Source: Holophaga sp. (GTDB lineage Bacteria; Acidobacteriota; Holophagae; Holophagales; Holophagaceae). From it: 31,326 nt of DNA. The stretch is from assembly GCA_031292735.1 (NCBI GenBank), contig JARLGP010000105.1, positions 1 through 31,326 of the forward strand, in the 5' to 3' direction. The position numbers were made by a program, and so were the translations under genes. Below are positions 1-10,080 of this stretch, piece by piece. Within the stretch, counting starts at the first letter, position 1; each line of letters starts with the position of its first letter. The notes below the pieces were generated by a model. The model searched no databases. It was given only the letters and a program-made list of their open reading frames with translations, and was not told where the DNA came from.

Positions 1-192
1 CTGTCTACGTATTGGAAGGCCCCGCGATGATGGCACCGGCCATGGCAAGACAAGGCACGCGAGGTGAGCGATTTGGATAATCGTTCGCCGAGCGTAACGC
101 GGGATTGCCGTGGCCGCTGCCATCACCCGAAGGGCGACGTCTGGAGATCAGGCCTCCAGACGTCGTCGCGGGGCCTTCGAATACGTAGACAG
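1..192. repeat. Long imperfect inverted repeat / giant hairpin element
   Basis: Positions 1-27 are the reverse complement of 166-192 with one mismatch, and 28-47 are the reverse complement of 106-125 with two mismatches. A weaker match pairs 63-74 with 78-89 around a 3-nt loop. The 40 bases 126-165, which have no partner on the left arm, contain their own perfect 12-bp stem-loop (135-146 with 154-165). The whole stretch can therefore fold as one branched hairpin on either strand. It ends 31 bases past the stop of hpdA and contains no convincing gene. It may extend left of the window. It could be a MITE-like element, a REP/BIME-type repeat, or a structured 3' end of the hpd transcript. I see no transposase and no integron attC core sites. 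Confidence 0.7.
135..165. terminator. GC-rich stem-loop downstream of hpdA (possible terminator)
   Basis: A perfect 12-bp stem with a 7-nt loop (147-153) lies about 60 bases past the hpdA stop codon. It has no U-tract on the minus-strand side, so it would be a weak or Rho-assisted terminator at best. It is also the side branch of the larger 1-192 hairpin. Confidence 0.35.
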
Positions 193-223
193 GCTCCTAG
201 CGTCCGGATCTTTGCCTTTCCAG

Positions 224-1177
224 CTAGAAGGGGGTATCACTGCCGATATAGCAGGTGATGCCCTCACTTTCATACAACCCTTGAATGTGCTTCATCACGG
301 AGTCTGGGGGCGACACCATATCCCGGCATCGGTACCCTTCATCCAGTTGCTCGTATTTTGAGGCTCCCAGGCGGTGGAAAGGCAGACAGTTCACTTCCTT
401 GACGCCAATCTTCCGAACGTATTTCGCCGTGGCCAGCACATTTTCATCATCCGTATTGAAGCCCTGGACCACAGGCATTCGCATGACAAGACGAAACTGT
501 CCAGCAATGGCCATCCTGGCCATCTTCGCGAGATTGTCCAGGATCAGTTCGTTGCCAACGCCGGTACCGGCCTTGTGGCGATCCGAATCCATATGCTTGA
601 TGTCCGCGAACAGCCAGTCCACATTCCGCAAAACCATCTCATAGTGCGGCCAGGGCGCATGGCCGGTGGTTTCGACGGCCGTGTGGATCTGGCTCTCATG
701 GCAAGCCTCGAGCAGGTTCGCCACAAAACGGTATTGAACCGCCATTTCGCCACCGCTCACCGTGACGCCGCCCCGACCTCCCCAAAACCGCCGGTCCCTT
801 TCGATCTTTTGCATGAGCTCATCGAGGGTGTACTTCCTGCCGGCCTGTTTCAGGGCATCATGGTAGCACTCGGCAGTGCAGGACAGGTCATCGCACGCGT
901 TGCAGGTTTCCCTGGCGATGGTCACATACCCGCCCGGCCCGCCCAGGCTTATGGCGTTCCTGGGGCATGCGTGCTCGACGCACCGGTAGCACTGGACGCA
1001 TTGGGTACGTCGGTATAGCAACTGCGGTCGCAGACTCCAACTTTCCGGGTTGCAGCACCAATAACAATTCAAAGGACAGCCCTTGAAAAACACCAACGTT
1101 CTGGCGCCAGGCCCGTCATGGACTGAATAGCCCTGAACATCAAAAATGATGGCTTCCGTGGCAACCTTCAACGGCAT
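224..1177 (-). CDS. hpdA: Glycyl radical activating enzyme of the HPA decarboxylase (radical SAM)
   Basis: Radical SAM activase of 317 residues that would use SAM and a [4Fe-4S] cluster to place the glycyl radical on HpdB. The SAM-cluster motif CX3CX2C is C34, C38, C41 (KGCPLNCYWC). It is followed by two ferredoxin-like Cys groups, C60/C63/C66/C71 and C92/C95/C100/C104, as in glycyl radical activases that carry extra clusters. The GGE motif (VTVSGGE) is present. I chose the ATG at 1177 because GGGAAGG lies 8 bases upstream and the protein then starts like family members. A longer reading up to 1354 would overlap hpdC and has no family-like N-terminus. It is the last gene of the hpdB-hpdC-hpdA order known from clostridial HPA decarboxylase loci, 52 bases after hpdC. 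Assignment to this decarboxylase rather than another glycyl radical enzyme rests on its neighbours. Confidence 0.88.
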   Translation of the reverse strand: MPLKVATEAIIFDVQGYSVHDGPGARTLVFFKGCPLNCYWCCNPESWSLRPQLLYRRTQCVQCYRCVEHACPRNAISLGGPGGYVTIARETCNACDDLSCTAECYHDALKQAGRKYTLDELMQKIERDRRFWGGRGGVTVSGGEMAVQYRFVANLLEACHESQIHTAVETTGHAPWPHYEMVLRNVDWLFADIKHMDSDRHKAGTGVGNELILDNLAKMARMAIAGQFRLVMRMPVVQGFNTDDENVLATAKYVRKIGVKEVNCLPFHRLGASKYEQLDEGYRCRDMVSPPDSVMKHIQGLYESEGITCYIGSDTPF

Positions 1178-1229
1178 GGTGACAGCCTTCCCATCCCGGC
1201 GGCCCGGGCAGCCCGCCATCGCTGGCGCC

Positions 1230-1469
1230 CTACTGCGCTGTGAATTGTTCACAACCGCCCAAATCCGGATAGACCATCTCACCCCCGCAGGTTCCCAGAA
1301 AGTCCCGGGCCGAGGGTTCATACTTGACGCAGAATTTGCATTTCCTGGCTGCATGAAAGGTCGGACAGACAGCAGCGTCGATCAGCACGGGTTGTTCTTT
1401 TGCTTCACAATAACCGTTGAATACATCACGGCTTGAGAGATGAATGCAGTCTGCACATTTATGAGCCAT
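1230..1469 (-). CDS. hpdC: 4-hydroxyphenylacetate decarboxylase small (Fe-S) subunit
   Basis: A 79-residue Cys-rich protein matching the small subunit unique to HPA decarboxylase, which carries two [4Fe-4S] clusters in two HiPIP-like half domains and helps regulate oligomerisation and activity. Candidate ligands are H3, C5, C8, C21 and C35 in the N-terminal half and C44, C47, C61 and C73 in the C-terminal half (KCKFC). The ATG at 1469 lies 4 bases after the hpdB stop. Its ribosome site GAGGGAG is inside the last hpdB codons, so translation is likely coupled. An in-frame ATG at 1487 would overlap hpdB and lacks such a site. By alignment from memory, the first ligand position of the known protein, a His three residues before the first Cys, is occupied here by C5 (CADC). 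Presence of this subunit separates the locus from toluene- or skatole-forming relatives, which as far as I know lack it. Confidence 0.88.
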   Translation of the reverse strand: MAHKCADCIHLSSRDVFNGYCEAKEQPVLIDAAVCPTFHAARKCKFCVKYEPSARDFLGTCGGEMVYPDLGGCEQFTAQ

Positions 1470-1473
1470 GTTC

Positions 1474-4119
1474 TTACACTCCCTCATATTCCGTTCGAGC
1501 GATCAGTTCGTCCTGGATGGGCTTGGAGATTTCACACCAGTATTGGGTGAACCCCGCAACTCTGACCATGAGGTCCCGGTAGTTCTCAGGATGGGCCTGG
1601 GCGTCCATGAGCATGCGCGAGTCGACCACGTTGAACTGGATGTGGTAGCCCCCCTTGTCCATATAAGCTTTGATCAGGTCGAGCATCTTTCGCGAGCCTT
1701 CCAGGCCATGGATGGCCGATGGATGCATTTTCATATTCAATTGAGTGTTCTTGAAGTCGGAGTGATCGATGATCGTGGCCGAATTAAGCACTGCGTATGG
1801 CCCATTGACATCGGTGCCCGGATGGGGAGACTGCCCACCGTCCGCCAGGGTGACGCCGGCAAAACGCCCGTCGGCAGAAGCGATATCCGCCTGCCCCAAA
1901 GGACCGTGGGTACCCACCGACAGCATGGAGGCAACCCAGGGGCGTCCAAACGGGTCCAGCGTCTTCTCTACCGTCCTCTTCCAATCGTCTGTGATCTCTT
2001 TGTAGATGGCGTCCGCCTCAGCATTGTCGTTGCCGAATTTTGGCGCATTGACACAGAGCGCGTGGATTCTATCCCACGCTTCAACACTCTTCTCCTTGAC
2101 CTGCTCCGCCATGGAGTAGTTACCAGTAACGAGCGCGCTCTTGAATCCGAAGTTGTTGATCAGCGCCTCTTTAAGTTCGTCCAGGGTAAAGTTTTTCATA
2201 TCGTATACGTTGGCCTTGATGGAAGCCAACGAATTGGTCGCGTTGACCTGGCCGGTGACCCAGGTCGTGAAGCACCGGTTGTAGCGACTGCCCTCATGGT
2301 CGATGTCCCCACCCTTTTCGATGCAATCGGCGGATAGCGCTGAGAGGAAGATCGGCTGATCAAGTTCAAAAGTGGCGGCCGCCTTGAGGTTGAAAGTTTC
2401 TTGGAAGATCCGCGTTACAGTTCCGAAATACTGCTTGAATTGCGCCAGCAGTTGGTCAAAGGTTTCCAGCTTGGAACCATGCGACGGGAACACCCTTACG
2501 CCGGTCCGGGGGCAAACCCCGTCCCAGAGCACAAGTTCCAATATTTTCGGCACATTGATGAAGTTGATTCCACTTGAGCTATAGGAGCCGGCTCCGATTT
2601 CACCGTTGACAACAGCGCCGGGCTGGATTTCCAGACACCCGCCGATACTCCATGCTCTTGCATCTTCGATCGTAATGCTTTCCGCTTGATGGGTCTTCAA
2701 ACAGTACTCGAGAGCAACTCTGTTGTTGACCCATGCGGGATAACCCGTACCGGTCTTGTTGCATTCAATGGCCTTCAGCAGGAACCGGTCACTCAGCTTC
2801 CCGTCATAAATCAGCGAGAGGGTGGGGGAAACCGTGGCGCATCTCATGGCTGCTTCGATGAACAGGTATTCCAGCTCGTTTTCCGCGGAAGTGCCATCGG
2901 GCTTTACACCACCCAAGGAGACGTTATTGAAGGTATTGCCGGATAGAATGCCCTGGGTCCCCGCACAGGTGGCGATTTCCAATTCCGTATATTTCACCCT
3001 CATGCATTGGAGAACATCCAGCGTTTGTTCCCGGGTGATCCGGCCTTCATCCATATCCTTTTTCCAGAAAGGGTAGAGTACTTGGCCCAGCCGTCCGGGA
3101 GAAAAGCCGGAGCCTTGCATCTCATTGTAGATTTCCAGCTGGCAGGTCCAATGCAGCTGGATGGCATCCATGAAGTTTCGTGGCTTGTTTTCCGCGATCC
3201 AGGCCATCCGTTCCGCGATCTCTTGGAATTCCAGCCTCTGTTGGGCATCTTTTTCCTTGGCCGCCAGCTGCCCAGCCTTCGCCGCGTAGTTCCTGACCCA
3301 GATCTGCACGCCTTCAATCACATGGATGCAGCTCTGCCAGAAGGCGATCTTGTCAACCTTGCCGGTGTCCAGGTGCTCGTGGATCTGCTTGCGGCACCAA
3401 TCAATCATCCCTTTGAAGCCCATCTGCAGGGGGTACTGAAAGTTGGTGACGCTCCGGCCATGGCGGTTGCCATATTCCTGGTCCGAAGACATCAGCACCG
3501 CCTTCTTCAGGTTCACCAGTGTGCTGTATTCGGGGTGCAGGGTGCCCCACAGGTAGCAGGTGTCTTCTGCTGACTTGTTGTTCCAGTAGCGGCACAATTC
3601 CAGCAGCGCCGGATACTCGTCCATCCGCTGCCCGAATCGGCCAGAGATGGAGAGCACCTCTTTAGTGCTTCCAGAAACAACCCCACCGCCCTTCCCCAGG
3701 ATGGTGATCTTCTCCAGTTCCATGTTACTGGCCTTGGAAGCGTCATTCTTCGCCCGCTCTTCGTCATTCAGCGGAAAACGGTTCGCGGTCCAAGGCACGA
3801 TGCTGGCCCCGCGAACGTATTTGTTCCGCTGCATGACAAGAAGCTCACCAGGACGGATGCAGGGTTCCAGGTGCGAGAAAGCGCTCTTGAAAGCAAGGCC
3901 GCGTCTGACGACCGGATGCTGACCTTCCTGTTCCTTCCACGTGCGGGTATACCAGTAGGGAAAGGTCGTATCCAGGGATACCTTCGCGTCATAGTAGTCC
4001 TGCAGCAGCTTCTTGGCCCTGGCACAGGCTTCCTTCTTGACCTCTCTGCCCGCCACCTTCGTGGGAACTTCTCCATAGTGGGGGGTGAGTCCTGATTCTG
4101 CCCTTGGCATTGGCTCCAC
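1474..4119 (-). CDS. hpdB: 4-hydroxyphenylacetate decarboxylase large subunit (glycyl radical enzyme)
   Basis: Pyruvate formate-lyase family enzyme of 881 residues. It is predicted to decarboxylate 4-hydroxyphenylacetate to p-cresol in the cytoplasm under anoxia. The active-site thiyl Cys is C495 in GGCLEIQPG, with the E497 expected two residues on, as in the C-x-E pair of arylacetate decarboxylases. The glycyl radical site is G856 in RVAGFTQYW near the C-terminus. The length and the positions of both motifs are within about 20 residues of clostridial HPA decarboxylase. The start is the GTG at 4119, which has GAGGTGAG 7 bases upstream. The ATG at 4110 has only a GGAG 3 bases away, too close. 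It is the first gene of the operon, followed by hpdC (4-base gap) and hpdA. Base composition is markedly lower in GC than the genes to the right. Phenylacetate (toluene) or indoleacetate decarboxylase activity is a lesser alternative. Confidence 0.88.
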   Translation of the reverse strand: MEPMPRAESGLTPHYGEVPTKVAGREVKKEACARAKKLLQDYYDAKVSLDTTFPYWYTRTWKEQEGQHPVVRRGLAFKSAFSHLEPCIRPGELLVMQRNKYVRGASIVPWTANRFPLNDEERAKNDASKASNMELEKITILGKGGGVVSGSTKEVLSISGRFGQRMDEYPALLELCRYWNNKSAEDTCYLWGTLHPEYSTLVNLKKAVLMSSDQEYGNRHGRSVTNFQYPLQMGFKGMIDWCRKQIHEHLDTGKVDKIAFWQSCIHVIEGVQIWVRNYAAKAGQLAAKEKDAQQRLEFQEIAERMAWIAENKPRNFMDAIQLHWTCQLEIYNEMQGSGFSPGRLGQVLYPFWKKDMDEGRITREQTLDVLQCMRVKYTELEIATCAGTQGILSGNTFNNVSLGGVKPDGTSAENELEYLFIEAAMRCATVSPTLSLIYDGKLSDRFLLKAIECNKTGTGYPAWVNNRVALEYCLKTHQAESITIEDARAWSIGGCLEIQPGAVVNGEIGAGSYSSSGINFINVPKILELVLWDGVCPRTGVRVFPSHGSKLETFDQLLAQFKQYFGTVTRIFQETFNLKAAATFELDQPIFLSALSADCIEKGGDIDHEGSRYNRCFTTWVTGQVNATNSLASIKANVYDMKNFTLDELKEALINNFGFKSALVTGNYSMAEQVKEKSVEAWDRIHALCVNAPKFGNDNAEADAIYKEITDDWKRTVEKTLDPFGRPWVASMLSVGTHGPLGQADIASADGRFAGVTLADGGQSPHPGTDVNGPYAVLNSATIIDHSDFKNTQLNMKMHPSAIHGLEGSRKMLDLIKAYMDKGGYHIQFNVVDSRMLMDAQAHPENYRDLMVRVAGFTQYWCEISKPIQDELIARTEYEGV

Positions 4120-4331
4120 TTTCTCACCTCAAAAATGACCAGACTGGATTTGTTGCGTGAAACGCCCAGGTCCGTCCGCGCCGTTGGCCTGGAACGGCCC
4201 CGGCGCCCATCGACGCGTGGATGCCCCTCCGGACGATCCCGATACAGATGGACCGCGAGTACCGGTGTTCACTGGGCCTCCATCACCTCCGGATCTCCGC
4301 AGGTTCGCCACCCAGTTTCCATGTCTGGCCA

Positions 4332-4348
4332 AAGTGTAGGGAACACTT
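4332..4348. promoter_or_regulatory. Dyad-symmetric operator candidate (AAGTGT-N5-ACACTT)
   Basis: A perfect 6+6 inverted repeat with a 5-base spacer overlaps the proposed -10 element of the hpd promoter. That position and symmetry fit a binding site for a dimeric repressor. No regulator gene is encoded next to it in the window. Confidence 0.45.
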
Positions 4349-4362
4349 GTTTTTCTGTCCAA
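4333..4362 (-). promoter_or_regulatory. Candidate hpd operon promoter
   Basis: On the minus strand TTGGAC (4362-4357) and TACACT (4338-4333) are separated by 18 bases, a plausible sigma-70-type promoter. It would leave a leader of about 200 bases before hpdB. The rest of the leader (4120-4332) shows no clear gene or known RNA motif. Confidence 0.4.
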
Positions 4363-4397
4363 AACCATTTTTATAGCAGATCCATAGTCGAAAGCTA

Positions 4398-5600
4398 TCA
4401 TTCCCCCTGGAGGAGCCGCCGAACCGGATCGGCCAGCGGGGAGCCCCTGCGGGCCAGGCGGAACACCCCGCCCCAGAACCTGAGCCCCGGAGCATTCAGC
4501 CAGACGTTCTGCCAAGGGTGGTCCTGGAAGTGGGAGAGCAGTTGGGCGTTGCCGAAGATATCCACATAGGCCACATATTCCCAGTTGCTGGGCGGCACCA
4601 GCGCCACCGGGTCCGAGGCGGCCGGCGGCGCCCCGGTGAGCCCACCGGCGGTCAGCCGCTGCACCCGCCAGCTGCCGTCCCGCCACAGGTCCTGGAGGTT
4701 CCCGGCCAGGTCGCGGTAGGTCAGGTGCTGGACGGCGCCCGCCACCACCCGGGCGCAGGGATTGCCCTGGGCCAGGGGGGCCTCGGTGCGCCCGCCGGCG
4801 TTCAGCAGTTCCTCGTGCCAGGAGCCGTCGTAGCTCACATCCCGGATGCCGCCCCGGCCGTCCCGGTAGCTGATGTGGTAGGCCCCGGGCACGCCCACCG
4901 CCACCGGGTCACCCATGGCCGCCGGGGCCCGGGTGGCTCCGCCATTGTTCACCTGCTCGGCATGCCAGAGGGTATCGAACCAGAGGTCCTGGATGGTGCC
5001 CTCGGCATCCCGGTACAGCACGTGGCGCCAGCCGTTGTGCACCAGCTGCACCGGATTGCCGACCGCCATGGGCGCGCCGGTGGCGCCGCCCTGGTTCAGC
5101 TGGCGCACGTGCCAGGTCCGGTCGAACCAGAGGTCCTGGACGCCGCCGGCCAGGTCCCGGTAGGTCACGTGGAACGCCCCCTGGAAGTCCGCGCCGCTGG
5201 GATCCCCGGCGGCTGGGGGAGCCTGGGTCCGGCCGCCATTGTTCAACGGGTCCACGTGCCACCGGTCCTTTTCCCGGTGGCGGTCGAACCAGAGATCCTG
5301 GATGCCGCCGTCGCGGTCCCGGTAGGTGAAGTGGCCCTGGGGCCCGGTCCGTTCCGTGCGCTTCACCGCGGTGGCGGCGGGATCCCCGGCGGCGGGCGGG
5401 CCATCGGTGGCACCTCCGTTGTTCAACCGGTTCCGGCCGCAGGTGAGGTTGCCCTCCGGATCCCTCAGGATCGACGGGAAGGTTCGCCACTCGGCAAAAT
5501 AGTCGCTGAACAGACAGGGTTTGCCCACCACGGCCTGGGCGTGGCCGGAGGGGGCGGCCAGGAACAGCGCCGCCAGGAGGAAGACAGGTTTTGGATTCAT
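4398..5600 (-). CDS. Secreted beta-propeller lectin-like repeat protein
   Basis: A 400-residue protein with an N-terminal signal peptide (KPVFLLAALFLAAPSGHAQA). The rest is six to seven tandem units of about 45-50 residues on the pattern Y-R-D-x-x-G-x-x-Q-D-L-W-F-D, W-H, then L-N-x-G-G-x-T-x-A-P-x-A-x-G-D/N-P. Such units build a propeller like those of PLL/AAL-type (fucose-binding) lectins. The first and last units are degenerate. The start at 5600 has AGGAGA about 11 bases upstream; an earlier start at 5642 would put charged residues before the signal peptide. It lies 88 bases downstream of the sugar kinase on the same strand, so it could be read through from that operon. A carbohydrate-binding role is inferred from repeat type only, and no ligand is predicted. 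High-GC codon use marks it as part of the host-like backbone, in contrast to hpdBCA. Confidence 0.75.
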   Translation of the reverse strand: MNPKPVFLLAALFLAAPSGHAQAVVGKPCLFSDYFAEWRTFPSILRDPEGNLTCGRNRLNNGGATDGPPAAGDPAATAVKRTERTGPQGHFTYRDRDGGIQDLWFDRHREKDRWHVDPLNNGGRTQAPPAAGDPSGADFQGAFHVTYRDLAGGVQDLWFDRTWHVRQLNQGGATGAPMAVGNPVQLVHNGWRHVLYRDAEGTIQDLWFDTLWHAEQVNNGGATRAPAAMGDPVAVGVPGAYHISYRDGRGGIRDVSYDGSWHEELLNAGGRTEAPLAQGNPCARVVAGAVQHLTYRDLAGNLQDLWRDGSWRVQRLTAGGLTGAPPAASDPVALVPPSNWEYVAYVDIFGNAQLLSHFQDHPWQNVWLNAPGLRFWGGVFRLARRGSPLADPVRRLLQGE

Positions 5601-5688
5601 GGAACGTGGTTCTCCTGCCCTGGACGTTTCCTGGGCGCCCATGGCTGGGGCACCTGTGGAAAGTTCAGGGCGTTATTCGGGTTGACGG

Positions 5689-6708
5689 TTAATTGGCTGG
5701 TGCCGTTCCCCTGGCAGCCAACGGACTGGCCAGGGGGGTTCCCTGTTTGCGCAACTCGTTCCAGATGAGGGCTCCCGCCCCCAGGATCGCCGCGTCGGTG
5801 CCCGCCACGCCCGAGGGCAGAAGGGCCACCTTGCCCTTGAAGGCCACAGGGAGGTTCTCATCCATGGCCCGCAGGGTGGGATTGAAGATCAGGTCTCCGG
5901 CGCCCGCCAAGCCGCCAAACAGGATGATCGCTTCGGGGCGGGAGAACAGGACCATGTCGGCCAGCTTGGACCCCAGGATCCGGCCGGTGAGGTCGAAGGC
6001 CTCCAGGGCCAGCGCGTCCCCCTTCCGGGCCAGTTCGAACAGCAGCTTGGAGTTCAGCTGGTCGAACGGAATGGCGCGCAGGGCGGAAGGCGCGCGCCGG
6101 GTGGCCATGAGTTCCATCGCCGTGCGGGTGATGCCGGTGGCGGAGGCGTAGGTTTCCAGGCAGCCCAGCAGCCCGCAGCCGCACTCCCGGCCGGAATGGG
6201 TGGATACCGGCACGTGGCCCAGTTCCCCGGCCAGGCCGTCGGCCCCGTATACCAGCTCGCCGTTCACCACGATGCCGCTGCCCATTCCGGTGCCCAGGGT
6301 GATGGCGATGAAGTCGCGCATGCCCTTGGCCGCGCCGAACAGCATCTCGCCGATGGCCACGGCGTTGGCGTCGTTGGTGGTGGCGATGGGAACCTGGTAG
6401 TAGCGGCGCATCTCGCCGACGATGTCCACGAAGTCCCACTTGAGGTTGGCCGGGCCATGGATGGTGCCCGTGAAGTAGTTGGCGTTGGGCGCGGCGATGC
6501 CGATCCCGGCGAGCGGGGCCCCGCCCAGGCTGGTGAGGAGGGCCGCGGCCTGCTCATGCAGCCGCCGGAAGAAATGCGCCACCGGGAACTGGGAGTCGGT
6601 GGGCATGACCCCGGAGCCCAGGCACCGGCCGGAGCGGTCCACATAGCCGAAGGCCGTTTTCGTCCCACCCACGTCGACGCCCAGCACGCATTCCCCGGAT
6701 TTATTCAT
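5689..6708 (-). CDS. ROK-family sugar kinase (glucokinase-like)
   Basis: ROK kinase of about 339 residues that phosphorylates a hexose or N-acetylhexosamine with ATP in the cytoplasm. The phosphate loop is DVGGTK (12-17), the catalytic Asp lies in TTNDANAVAIGE, and the ROK zinc-site motif GHVPVS...CGCGLLGCLE is intact. A second ATP-binding glycine-rich segment (ILFGGLAGAG) lies near the C-terminus. The start is uncertain: the ATG at 6708 gives the usual short N-terminus before the ATP loop, while the ATG at 6732 overlaps the stop of the upstream permease as ATGA and would add eight residues. Either way the two genes are translationally linked. Context with a FucP/GluP-type permease points to glucose or a close relative as the substrate. 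The exact sugar cannot be read from the sequence. Confidence 0.87.
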   Translation of the reverse strand: MNKSGECVLGVDVGGTKTAFGYVDRSGRCLGSGVMPTDSQFPVAHFFRRLHEQAAALLTSLGGAPLAGIGIAAPNANYFTGTIHGPANLKWDFVDIVGEMRRYYQVPIATTNDANAVAIGEMLFGAAKGMRDFIAITLGTGMGSGIVVNGELVYGADGLAGELGHVPVSTHSGRECGCGLLGCLETYASATGITRTAMELMATRRAPSALRAIPFDQLNSKLLFELARKGDALALEAFDLTGRILGSKLADMVLFSRPEAIILFGGLAGAGDLIFNPTLRAMDENLPVAFKGKVALLPSGVAGTDAAILGAGALIWNELRKQGTPLASPLAARGTAPAN

Positions 6709-6728: not shown

Positions 6729-8012
6729 TCATAGACTCCCTTTGCCCGCCCGCGGCAGATACCCGGCCGCGCCGAAGAAGGCGATGTAGGCGTAGCAGAT
6801 AGCCGGCAGGACGAACCCGGTGCGGATCCCCTGCCAGTCGGCCAGCAGGCCCTGGGCCAGGGGCACCACGGCGCCGCCCACCACGGCCAGGCACAGGATC
6901 CCTGAAGCCTGCCCCATGTGCCGGCCCAGATCCTTGATGGCGAGGGTGAAGATGGTGGGAAACATGATGGAGTTGAAGAAGCCCACCGCCAGGAGGGCCC
7001 ACATGGAGGCCCGCCCCTGGGCGGCCATGGCGGTGAGCACCAGGGCCAGGGCGGCCAGGGCGTTGCAGGTCAGGACCCGGGGCGGAGGCACCAGGCGCAT
7101 GACCCCAGCGCCCACGAACCGGCCGACCATGGCCCCGCCCCAGTACAGCGACACATAGCGGGCGGCGTGGGCCAGGGGAATCCCGCCGACGCTGGGCTGG
7201 TTGATGTAGTTCACCAGGAAGCTGCCGATGCCCACCTCGGCTCCCACATAGAGGAAGATGCCGAGGGTGCCCAGCAGCATCGGCCGGTGCCGCCAGGGGC
7301 TGGACGGACCGTGCGGCACGCCCGCTGCGGGGTCATCCGGGGCGCCGGGATCCGGGCCCGCCACCGGCATGGGATACCATGCGGTGAATCCGGCCAGCGC
7401 CACCAGGGTCGCGGCCAGCCCCAGGTAGGGCAGCTGCACCGACGCCGCTCCGCCCCCGGCGAGGATGAGCACCGAACCGAACAGCGGCGCGAGGGTGGTG
7501 CCCAGGGAATTGAAGCCCTGGGTGAGGGTCAACCGGCTGGAGGCGGTTTCCGGGCGTCCCAGCACCGCCACGTAGGGATTGGCGGCCACCTGCAGCAGGG
7601 TGACTCCCGCCGCCAGCAGGAAGAGGGCGGCCAGGAACATGGCGTAGGCCTGGGATTCCGCCGCGGGATAGAACAGGAGGCAGCCCGCGGCCATGGTCAC
7701 CAGCCCGGAGACCATGCCCCGCTGGTAGCCCACCCGGTCCACCAGCCAGCCGGAGGGCAGCGACATGATGAAATAGGCCGAAAAAAAGCTGAACTGGATC
7801 AGCATGGCCCTGGCGTAGTTGAGCTCGAACACCGCCTTGAGGTGAGGCACCAGAATGTCATTCAGGCAGGTTATGAACCCGAATATGAAATACAGTGAAC
7901 CGAGCGCAGTCAAGGGCCCAGCGTAGGAGGTCGGGTGGTTCGTGTTCGGGTGATTGCCCACACCCACGAGACAGTCCCGATCCTCAGGAGCCAATTCATC
8001 CACGCTTTCCAT
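6729..8012 (-). CDS. Sugar MFS transporter, FucP/GluP family
   Basis: A 427-residue inner-membrane permease with about twelve hydrophobic segments, probably a proton- or sodium-coupled sugar importer. Family signs are GFITCLNDILVPHLK in the first membrane helix region and QVAANPYVAVLG in helix 5, typical of the fucose/glucose-galactose permease group. The ATG at 8012 has GGAG 5 bases upstream. It is the first gene of a pair with the ROK kinase, whose possible start overlaps its stop codon, so uptake and phosphorylation are coupled. Alternatives within the family are fucose or N-acetylglucosamine transport; the kinase partner favours a hexose that is phosphorylated on entry. Confidence 0.87.
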   Translation of the reverse strand: MESVDELAPEDRDCLVGVGNHPNTNHPTSYAGPLTALGSLYFIFGFITCLNDILVPHLKAVFELNYARAMLIQFSFFSAYFIMSLPSGWLVDRVGYQRGMVSGLVTMAAGCLLFYPAAESQAYAMFLAALFLLAAGVTLLQVAANPYVAVLGRPETASSRLTLTQGFNSLGTTLAPLFGSVLILAGGGAASVQLPYLGLAATLVALAGFTAWYPMPVAGPDPGAPDDPAAGVPHGPSSPWRHRPMLLGTLGIFLYVGAEVGIGSFLVNYINQPSVGGIPLAHAARYVSLYWGGAMVGRFVGAGVMRLVPPPRVLTCNALAALALVLTAMAAQGRASMWALLAVGFFNSIMFPTIFTLAIKDLGRHMGQASGILCLAVVGGAVVPLAQGLLADWQGIRTGFVLPAICYAYIAFFGAAGYLPRAGKGSL

Positions 8013-8364
8013 GGGTACTCCATCAAATATTAAATGTGAATTTATAAGTTAAATTAATGATCATATTAATGGTAAGAATAATGCTTAATCTATTTCGAAT
8101 AGAGTATACGCAGTAAAAATCGGCAATTCCAGCCCCATTTTCGATAAAAATAACCATGATATTTTGCAACACCTGGCACCCAAGGCCCACCCGGAGGCTG
8201 AATTCCAGGCGGCCTTCCGCGACGGCAAGCCGCGGCCGGGGAGAGAATTTTCATGGCAATCCAGCTTGTTTTTTTGGCACCGCTGAAGGACGCCTGGCAT
8301 CAGACCTGAATCACTGCGATCCAGGAACCCATCCTGTGCCGCCTATTCCATAGCGGGGATTTCC
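8013..8364. promoter_or_regulatory. AT-rich divergent intergenic region between permease and protease genes
   Basis: This 352-base gap separates divergent genes. Bases 8021-8160 are strikingly AT-rich for this genome and must hold the permease promoter on the minus strand. A TATACT reads there at about 8113-8118 without a good -35 partner, and a palindromic ATTAAT repeat flanks GATCAT near 8053-8070. The protease side (8161-8364) is GC-rich, with no clear promoter and no gene I can support. Confidence 0.45.
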
Positions 8365-10080
8365 ATGTCTCATTTCAGACCTCTATTCCTGTACCTGGCG
8401 CTCGCCCTTCCCTGCAGCTTCCTGCGGGGAGCGGATGACCATCCCGAACCGGATCCCGGCGCGGCCAGGGACGTCCTGCAGCGCCTGCTGGACCGACGCG
8501 CCGAGCTGGGCCTGCGCGAGGCCGACGACTTCAAGGTCAAGGACGTGGCGGCCGATCCGAACGGGGCCCTCCACGTGCGCCTCCAGCAGCGCTACCGGGG
8601 GCTGCGGGTGTGGGGCGGCGAGGCCATCGTGCACCTGGACGCCAAGGGCGCGGAGCAGCCCATGACCGACGCGCTGGTGCGCGGGATCCAGGTGGAGGTG
8701 ACGCCCAACCTGGACCAGGCCGAGGCCCTGGCCATCACCCATGCCAGCGAAGCGCCACGGGGCTCCTACGCGCGCGCCCCCACCGTCGAGCTGCTGGTCT
8801 ACCCGGACGCGGCGCTCCAGCCCCTCCCCGAGGCGCAGGGCGGGCGCAACGCCAGGGATTTCGCGCCCCGGGTCACCCGCCTGCACCTGGCCTACCACAT
8901 CCACCTGGACCTGCAGAACGGCGCCCCGGAAACCCGCAATGACGACTTCCTGGTGGACGCCCACACCGGCGCCATCCTGCGCCGGTGGTCCACCCTGTTC
9001 ACCGTCAGGAAGCCCAAGGGATCGCCCGCCACCACCCTCGGCCATTCCCAGTACAGCGGCGAGGTGAAGCTGGGGACCCTCTCCACCAGCTGCGGCTTCG
9101 TGATGGCGGATCCCACCCGGGCGACCATCTCCACCCGGGACCTGGCGGGCCGCACCGAGGGCCACGGGGTGCTCTACGTGAGCCAGGAAGGCCGCTGGGG
9201 CGACGGCGAGAACTACGACCCCCTCCGGGGCTCCAAGTCCCCCAACGGCCAGACCGCGGCGGTGGACGCCCACTACGGGCTGCAGACCACCTGGGACTTC
9301 TACCGGAACGTGCTGGGCCGGAACGGCATCGACGGCAAGGGCAGGACGGCCTACAACCGCGTCCACTACGCCTCCGGCTTCGACAACGCGTTCTGGGACG
9401 ACGACTGCTTCTGCATGACCTACGGCGACGGGGAGACCTTCAAGACCCTCACGGCCCTGGACGTGGTGGCCCACGAGGTTTCCCACGGGCTCTGCCATTC
9501 CACCGCGGACCTGGACTACCAGGGCGAATCGGGCGGCCTCAACGAGGCCAGTTCGGACATCTTCGGGGTCATGGTCTACCTCTACGGCCACGCGGCCCAC
9601 GGCAAGGGCCCGGGGCTGCCCGCCAAGGGCGGCCGCTGGACCATGGGCGACGACCTCAAGACCGCCGCCTTCCCCAACCCGCTGCGCTACATGTTCAAGC
9701 CCAGCCTGGACGGCTTCAGCCCGGACGCGTGGTCCCCGGACCTGGACTACCTGGACGTCCACCTGAGCTCCGGCCCCATGAACCGCGCCTTCTACTTCCT
9801 GAGCCAGGGCGCCAGCGCCCGGAAATCCGACGACGCCTACAGCGCGTTCCTGCCCAAGGGCATGCGCGGCATCGGCAACGACAAGGCGCTGCGCATCTGG
9901 TGGCGGACCCTGTCCACCTACCTCACGCCCAAGAGCCGCTACCAGGAGGCGCGCCAGGGCTCCATCCGCGCCGCCGGGGACCTGTTCGGCGAAAAGGGGC
10001 CGGAGGTGAAGGCGGTCCGCCTGGCCTTCCACGGCATCAACGTCGACGGGCCGAAGAACGCGACGATCCGGACGGATTGA
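8365..10080 (+). CDS. Secreted M4 (thermolysin-type) zinc metalloprotease precursor
   Basis: A 571-residue preproenzyme. A signal peptide (about 1-23) is followed by an FTP/PepSY-type propeptide of roughly 170 residues, then the peptidase. Zinc ligands and catalytic residues are H370-E371-x-x-H374 (VVAHEVSHGL) and E394 in GGLNEASSD. The 20-residue spacing from the second His to this Glu equals that in thermolysin. The later DVHLSSGPMNRAFYFL segment supplies the conserved active-site His. The start ATG is preceded by a modest GGGGA. It would digest protein outside the cell or in the periplasm and mature by removing its own propeptide. No typical C-terminal secretion or PPC domain follows. It is a single gene with no operon partner. 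Confidence 0.92.
   Translation: MSHFRPLFLYLALALPCSFLRGADDHPEPDPGAARDVLQRLLDRRAELGLREADDFKVKDVAADPNGALHVRLQQRYRGLRVWGGEAIVHLDAKGAEQPMTDALVRGIQVEVTPNLDQAEALAITHASEAPRGSYARAPTVELLVYPDAALQPLPEAQGGRNARDFAPRVTRLHLAYHIHLDLQNGAPETRNDDFLVDAHTGAILRRWSTLFTVRKPKGSPATTLGHSQYSGEVKLGTLSTSCGFVMADPTRATISTRDLAGRTEGHGVLYVSQEGRWGDGENYDPLRGSKSPNGQTAAVDAHYGLQTTWDFYRNVLGRNGIDGKGRTAYNRVHYASGFDNAFWDDDCFCMTYGDGETFKTLTALDVVAHEVSHGLCHSTADLDYQGESGGLNEASSDIFGVMVYLYGHAAHGKGPGLPAKGGRWTMGDDLKTAAFPNPLRYMFKPSLDGFSPDAWSPDLDYLDVHLSSGPMNRAFYFLSQGASARKSDDAYSAFLPKGMRGIGNDKALRIWWRTLSTYLTPKSRYQEARQGSIRAAGDLFGEKGPEVKAVRLAFHGINVDGPKNATIRTD

Follow-up and report, generated by a model that had tools for sequence, protein, structure and literature searches.

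The window analysed here comprises positions 1-31,326 of contig JARLGP010000105.1 of the Holophaga sp. assembly GCA_031292735.1. On its minus strand, at 224-4119, it carries three genes in the B-C-A order of the 4-hydroxyphenylacetate decarboxylase (HPAD) operon, encoding an HpdB-like large subunit, an HpdC-like small subunit and an HpdA-like activase (Table 1). The HpdB-like protein incorporates both domains of the glycyl radical enzymes, PFL-like (PF02901) and Gly_radical (PF01228), and the HpdA-like protein a Radical_SAM domain (PF04055). An initial annotation of this DNA had described a complete three-component operon with active-site Cys495 and Glu497 and glycyl Gly856. This was borne out, with all three open reading frames (ORFs) found and the residues located exactly there, and the top NCBIfam family of each protein is the corresponding HPAD component, namely the large subunit (NF033715), small subunit (NF033716) and activase (NF033717). 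However, all three score below the HPAD equivalog cut-offs (B, 1009.9 against 1150 bits; C, 43.4 against 50; A, 370.8 against 420). Among solved structures, the window HpdB comes closest by sequence to 2Y8N, the large subunit of HPAD (752 bits; runner-up 326 bits), and the HPAD of Clostridium scatologenes, with 42 % identity, is its closest characterised relative.

Table 1. Positions of the operon genes, pocket codons and flanking element in the window
Feature	Position	Strand	Remarks
W-type HpdB-like glycyl radical enzyme gene	1474-4119	-	881 aa from GTG; 878 aa from ATG at 4110
HpdC-like small-subunit gene	1230-1469	-	79 aa from ATG, eight Cys; ORF opens at 1487
HpdA-like radical SAM activase gene	224-1177	-	317 aa from ATG; 376-aa ORF to 1354 over-extends
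Codon of Trp620 (place of HPAD Glu637)	2260-2262	-	By alignment
Codon of Asn519 (place of HPAD His536)	2563-2565	-	By alignment
Codons of catalytic Cys495 and Glu497 (C-x-E)	2629-2637	-	By alignment
Codon of Ser337 (HPAD Ser344)	3109-3111	-	By alignment
Codon of glycyl radical Gly856 (HPAD Gly873)	1552-1554	-	By alignment
MITE-like palindromic element flanking the operon	1-192	none	30-nt arms, DNA fold z = -13.4; apparently cut at contig start

The pocket was compared in an alignment of the window HpdB, residues 32-896 of HPAD and 119 homologues (the best 120 of 498, minus P0001, which is the window's own protein). A passage of PMC4979209 names Arg223, Ser344, Gly345, Phe405, Cys503, Glu505, Gly532, His536 and Glu637 as the HPAD pocket, with Glu637 specifically tied to the para-hydroxyl group. 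The equivalents in the window are, in the same order, Arg222, Ser337, Gly338, Phe397, Cys495, Glu497, Ser515, Asn519 and Trp620. The catalytic Cys/Glu pair and glycyl residue of HPAD are present, whereas His536 and Glu637 are not. Since Ser is also found at position 532 in 77/78 HPAD-type homologues, only the changes at 536 and 637 are telling.

These two positions divide the homologues. Among the best 120 of 498, the 38 with at least 50 % identity to the window (P0002-P0039; 36 at 61-86 %, two at 51 %), here termed W-type, carry Trp at 637 throughout; their residue at 536 is never His but Asn (27), Gly (6), Ala (2), Phe (2) or Ser (1). Positions 223, 344, 345, 405, 503 and 505 are identical to HPAD in all 38. 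The remaining 81 (P0040-P0120; 46-50 % identity) have His/Glu at 536/637 in 78 cases, the exceptions being P0098 and P0102 (His/Asn) and P0103 (Ser/Pro). Twenty-three columns are fixed differently (at least 97 %) between the 38 W-type and 78 His/Glu homologues, and of these 220, 221, 343, 396, 507, 530, 531, 635 and 637 are at most five residues away from a named pocket residue of HPAD or of indoleacetate decarboxylase (IAD). Five other W-type members that were scanned likewise fall under the HPAD cut-off. The HPAD-like proteins P0098 and P0102 also have Gln for Glu505 besides Asn for Glu637, while retaining His536; P0102 nevertheless scores above the equivalog cut-off for HPAD (1442.7 bits), and the cut-off alone thus does not guard the active site.

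Among 80 genome loci listed from a longer scan, in which further loci exist, His536 and Glu637 occur together in 46/46 loci with at least 49 % identity to C. scatologenes HPAD. At least five loci at 39-43 % are W-type, with Trp at 637 and both His536 and Glu637 absent; these belong to a metagenome-assembled genome (MAG) named Tolsyn, Clostridiales SUG145, Superficieibacter electus, a Coriobacteriia MAG and Arcanobacterium sp. SUG972. The W-type B and C genes of S. electus (L003, 10001-12865), a named strain of an enterobacterium, lie downstream of what by eye appear to be glnA and two-component genes. In a sample of 396 Acidobacteriota genomes, Tolsyn was the one found to have a W-type enzyme; a further five gave 42-47 % matches with His/Glu, so that acidobacterial HPAD-type genes are not unheard of. 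Among 394 genomes of SUG145's order it was found in SUG145 itself, with two other matches at 42 %. Both samples include the genome on which they are centred, and scoring was limited to two candidates per genome. Further Acidobacteriota glycyl radical enzymes (L104-L112; 830-872 aa, L112 partial; 32-42 % identity to the window) have C-x-E and Leu at the place of 637.

The W-type enzymes are a separate clade, sister to HPAD. In a tree of 71 rows the window lies within 24 W-type rows (SH-aLRT 99), sister to, rather than among, 28 HPAD-type rows (SH-aLRT 100), which include P0098 and P0102, while P0103, the IAD-type rows and then the toluene-forming enzyme PhdB fall outside. The same topology was recovered with 44 rows (SH-aLRT 99 for W-type, 100 for HPAD and 100 for both together). 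These trees were quick searches without bootstrap in which the pocket columns were kept, and PhdB and some of the outgroup drew long-branch warnings. The initial annotation had proposed placing HpdB in a tree with HPAD, PhdB and IAD as a check on its reading, and no clustering with PhdB was seen (28 % identity; one clade with W-type rejected in the approximately unbiased (AU) test, p = 1.1e-75). The best trees do not group it with IAD either, although the rejection of a joint W-type and IAD clade is only borderline (AU p = 0.051). No paper on the W-type clade was found in the open-licence PMC literature.

HpdC-like genes were sought with a profile seeded with the window, Tolsyn, SUG145 and Superficieibacter HpdC (one iteration) among plus-strand ORFs of 45-199 aa starting at most 8 kb from the enzyme gene at the 80 loci. 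Such a gene occurs near the enzyme gene at 44/46 HPAD-type loci, where one of the two loci lacking it runs off its contig, and at 3/5 W-type loci, all three themselves profile seeds. The profile search detected none at six IAD-type loci, 23 other loci or in the 11.8-kb PhdB locus. IAD-type here denotes Ala at 400 with Leu at 637, and one of the six loci, L054, passes the IAD cut-off (1624 against 1100 bits). HpdC is common to W-type and HPAD loci and therefore follows their joint lineage, so that its presence does not decide whether p-cresol or toluene is formed; the argument of the initial annotation that the small subunit speaks for p-cresol over toluene accordingly falls away. Two actinobacterial W-type loci have no HpdC nearby, and a major facilitator superfamily (MFS) gene lies 105-109 bp downstream, scoring best, below cut-off, against an L-lactate transporter model. 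Arylacetate import has been proposed for MFS genes adjoining IAD and HPAD in a passage of PMC6181972. The window HpdC has Cys in place of His3 of Clostridium drakei HpdC and 2y8n_B, as is also seen at some HPAD loci (e.g. L008). As a single sequence it had no match in the PDB. A profile of 19 HpdC sequences matches 2y8n_B, but contains C. drakei HpdC; this match proves little, as the large subunits of C. drakei and of the structure share 99 % identity. HpdC-like proteins beside His/Glu HPADs at L022, L025, L040 and L048 are without the first Cys residues, which hints that one Fe-S cluster is possibly dispensable in them.

Taken together, the sequence features suggest that the operon probably encodes a transferred three-component glycyl radical decarboxylase of the W-type clade. 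As Glu637 and His536 are replaced, its substrate would most likely be an arylacetate offering no para-hydroxyl group to a Glu base, such as phenylacetate or another apolar or heteroaryl acetate. The activase would place a radical on Gly856, from where it would pass to Cys495. With Arg222, Ser337 and Glu497 retained, the substrate may be held at its carboxylate end as in HPAD, and the ring end would face Trp620 and Asn519 instead of Glu637 and His536. We assume that His536, too, contacts the para-hydroxyl group in HPAD, the residue named in the literature passages being Glu637. In that case the radical step may consist of hydrogen abstraction or of electron transfer alone, and not of the proton-coupled Kolbe step of HPAD. 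A passage of PMC9248008 has Glu637 deprotonating the phenol in the proposed Kolbe-type step of HPAD, and gives hydrogen abstraction as the proposal for IAD, which is without Glu at this place, the residue there being Leu (passage of PMC6181972). Several points weigh against this interpretation. The placement of Trp620 comes from sequence alignment; an AlphaFold2 model of the window HpdB (21 rows) has a mean predicted local distance difference test score of 62.3, with 381-400 and 483-498 under 50, and pocket geometry was not taken from it. The 44 W-type rows are non-independent: 21 clusters remain when they are grouped at 90 % identity, and 11 at 80 %. Furthermore, position 536 varies inside the clade, and the contact to the ring is thus not fixed.

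The nearest genome-linked relative among the loci listed (85-87 % identity) is encoded on PJLO01000005.1 of 'Acidobacteria bacterium isolate Tolsyn'. A Gly_radical search of this 3.6-Mb MAG returned two enzymes, one W-type, with HpdC and activase, and the other of 839 aa with C482, G815, H327 and Y691, an adjoining activase and no HpdC in its locus. These we take to be the residue numbers of PhdB, and the MAG is presumably the one linked to the PhdB work. By the MAG name, the assumed residue numbers and a passage of PMC9226047, in which PhdB is placed in an acidobacterium from sewage, the 839-aa enzyme appears to be PhdB. The two glycyl radical enzymes are distinct, and the W-type enzyme is therefore not the apparent PhdB of the same genome. 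SUG145 (G002) likewise combines a W-type enzyme with a PhdB relative, and also encodes an IAD-type enzyme. The relative (C17, L119, 1456-3975) is an 839-aa protein with 66 % identity to Tolsyn PhdB, after which an activase-like frame begins, and places a PhdB-type gene outside the Acidobacteriota; around H327 it reads TVDHNP where PhdB reads TVHHAP, and toluene formation by it is not shown. PhdB or a relative is present in 2/5 W-type and 0/45 HPAD/IAD genomes (best other identity 38-39 %; Fisher p = 0.008, or p = 0.08 without Tolsyn, 1/4 against 0/45). Matches were restricted to SUG145 in 394 genomes of its order (E <= 1e-200) and to Tolsyn in 396 Acidobacteriota genomes (E <= 1e-140). Against all 833 sampled genomes, at least one of which (G423) is counted twice, p is 2.9e-5, or 0.005 without Tolsyn. 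The sample comprises few genomes, chosen for their W-type enzymes, with thresholds that differ between searches and with Tolsyn as the source of the PhdB query, and the co-occurrence is best regarded as a lead.

The initial annotation had named p-cresol as the product. The Cys, Glu and Gly residues on which it drew are common to HPAD and IAD, and the replacement of Glu637 by Trp620 and His536 by Asn519 leaves that product unsupported. A p-cresol-forming enzyme using a Glu637-independent route appears unlikely in view of the strict separation of the listed loci at 536 and 637, although HPAD is the closest characterised relative and shares the B-C-A operon, and arylacetate decarboxylase (AAD) provides a precedent for decarboxylation of 4-hydroxyphenylacetate without the HPAD residues (passage of PMC9248008). 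In the five W-type genomes searched, moreover, no further glycyl radical enzyme with His536/Glu637 was found, as if the W-type enzyme had replaced HPAD. As a special case of the arylacetate reading favoured above, the enzyme could be a second toluene-forming phenylacetate decarboxylase, not closely akin to PhdB, in which Trp620 would fill the para-hydroxyl space and favour a bare ring. The loss of Glu637 and His536 and the company of PhdB in W-type genomes point in this direction, but a genome already endowed with PhdB should need no second such enzyme, and the co-occurrence comes down to two genomes, one of them the query source; this specific assignment is doubtful. That the product is skatole, formed by an IAD, is highly improbable. 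While the joint clade with IAD is rejected only at the borderline, the window HpdB scores 797 bits against an IAD cut-off of 1100, and has Leu392 and Trp620 where the six IAD-type loci have Ala and Leu. It also has a small subunit, which IAD, with an Ala396/His514/Leu616 pocket in Olsenella scatoligenes numbering, is without according to a passage of PMC6181972, and W-type SUG145 has its separate enzyme with the IAD signature.

The operon genes differ in composition from the contig around them, with GC 0.51-0.57 and GC at third codon positions (GC3) 0.51-0.70 against 0.65-0.72 and 0.87-0.95 in nine other genes (one ABC permease gene left out and the ROK gene shortened). A comparison of GC had been proposed as a further check, and against these nine genes of the contig the operon deviates in both measures. 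The description of the operon as lower in GC than everything to its right stands for the nine measured genes, but not for the 1-kb block 7501-8500, which is equally GC-poor (0.571). A large hairpin had also been described on one flank, and a strong one was indeed found; it is one of a family of palindromes ending in CTAGGAGCCTGTC, for which 7/357 Acidobacteriota genomes gave matches and Tolsyn did not. Relatives at four loci look intergenic by eye. A terminator or integron attC site was considered for this hairpin, but the dispersed copies with CTAGGAGCCTGTC ends, judged by eye, fit a miniature inverted-repeat transposable element (MITE)-like element better. To the right of the operon, ORF 4398-5642, which looks repetitive by eye, has no Pfam match above cut-off, and its earlier label as lectin-like could not be confirmed. 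Rfam gave nothing at E <= 0.5 on 1-6000, and plasmid records encoded no relative at E <= 1e-100. The contig adenosylhomocysteinase has its best named matches in Holophaga sp. MAGs (86-87 %) and Mesoterricola sediminis (87 %), others reaching 93 %, and this one gene suggests a Holophagaceae-like host genome. An assembly chimera, in which the low-GC block would be foreign to the genome, could be suspected from its position at the very contig end and from its closest genome relative, which comes from an acidobacterium of lower GC (Tolsyn W-type locus, 0.534). It is very unlikely, however, as the hairpin beyond the operon belongs to the family matched in Acidobacteriota genomes but not in Tolsyn, and when 1-6000 is compared with the 22.7-kb Tolsyn locus, similarity at the DNA level (74-81 %) is limited to 225-4081. 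Both flanks thus look acidobacterial and unlike Tolsyn, which favours transfer of the operon into a GC-rich, Holophagaceae-like genome over a chimera.

Some sources name such genes 4-hydroxyphenylacetate decarboxylase (P0025, P0035), and p-cresol is then inferred; the W-type clade shows that operon layout and the catalytic Cys/Glu/Gly residues do not prove this product. A natural enzyme that bears HpdC and is without Glu637 is a test case for the Kolbe proposal, and a further candidate radical decarboxylase is offered by the acidobacterial MAG in which PhdB is apparently encoded. Judged from sequence, and tentatively, the W-type clade may be a further kind of arylacetate decarboxylase beside the four characterised (passage of PMC9248008), combining the small subunit and carboxylate site of HPAD with the absence of the Glu637 relay and a substrate other than 4-hydroxyphenylacetate (phenylacetate or another aryl or heteroaryl acetate). 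If so, it would provide a natural test of the dependence of the HPAD mechanism on Glu637, and might represent, within a PhdB genome, a second way of forming a toluene-like product.

Among the known systems, HPAD (HpdBCA/CsdBCA; PDB 2Y8N, 2YAJ) shares with the window the B-C-A order, the C-x-E motif, the residues Ser344, Arg223, Gly345 and Phe405, the small subunit and the activase family, but differs in His536 and Glu637, in its separate clade, at 42 % identity, and in the NCBIfam cut-offs that all three window components fail to reach. IAD resembles the window enzyme as a relative with C-x-E and no Glu at the 637 place, and is distinguished by its Ala/His/Leu pocket, the lack of a small subunit and the 36-39 % identity of the six IAD-type loci to the window. 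PhdB, represented by the apparent Tolsyn enzyme (L083), is likewise a glycyl radical enzyme and shares its genome with the closest W-type relative, but is only 28 % identical, has C-x-Q instead of C-x-E, shows no small subunit in its 11.8-kb locus and is rejected as part of a joint clade. AAD, which we take to be PDB entry 7E7L, an entry itself named hydroxyphenylacetic acid decarboxylase, is more distant, with 269 bits for 7E7L against the window HpdB compared to 752 for HPAD. Unlike the window system, AAD is described in a passage of PMC9248008 as being without auxiliary subunits.

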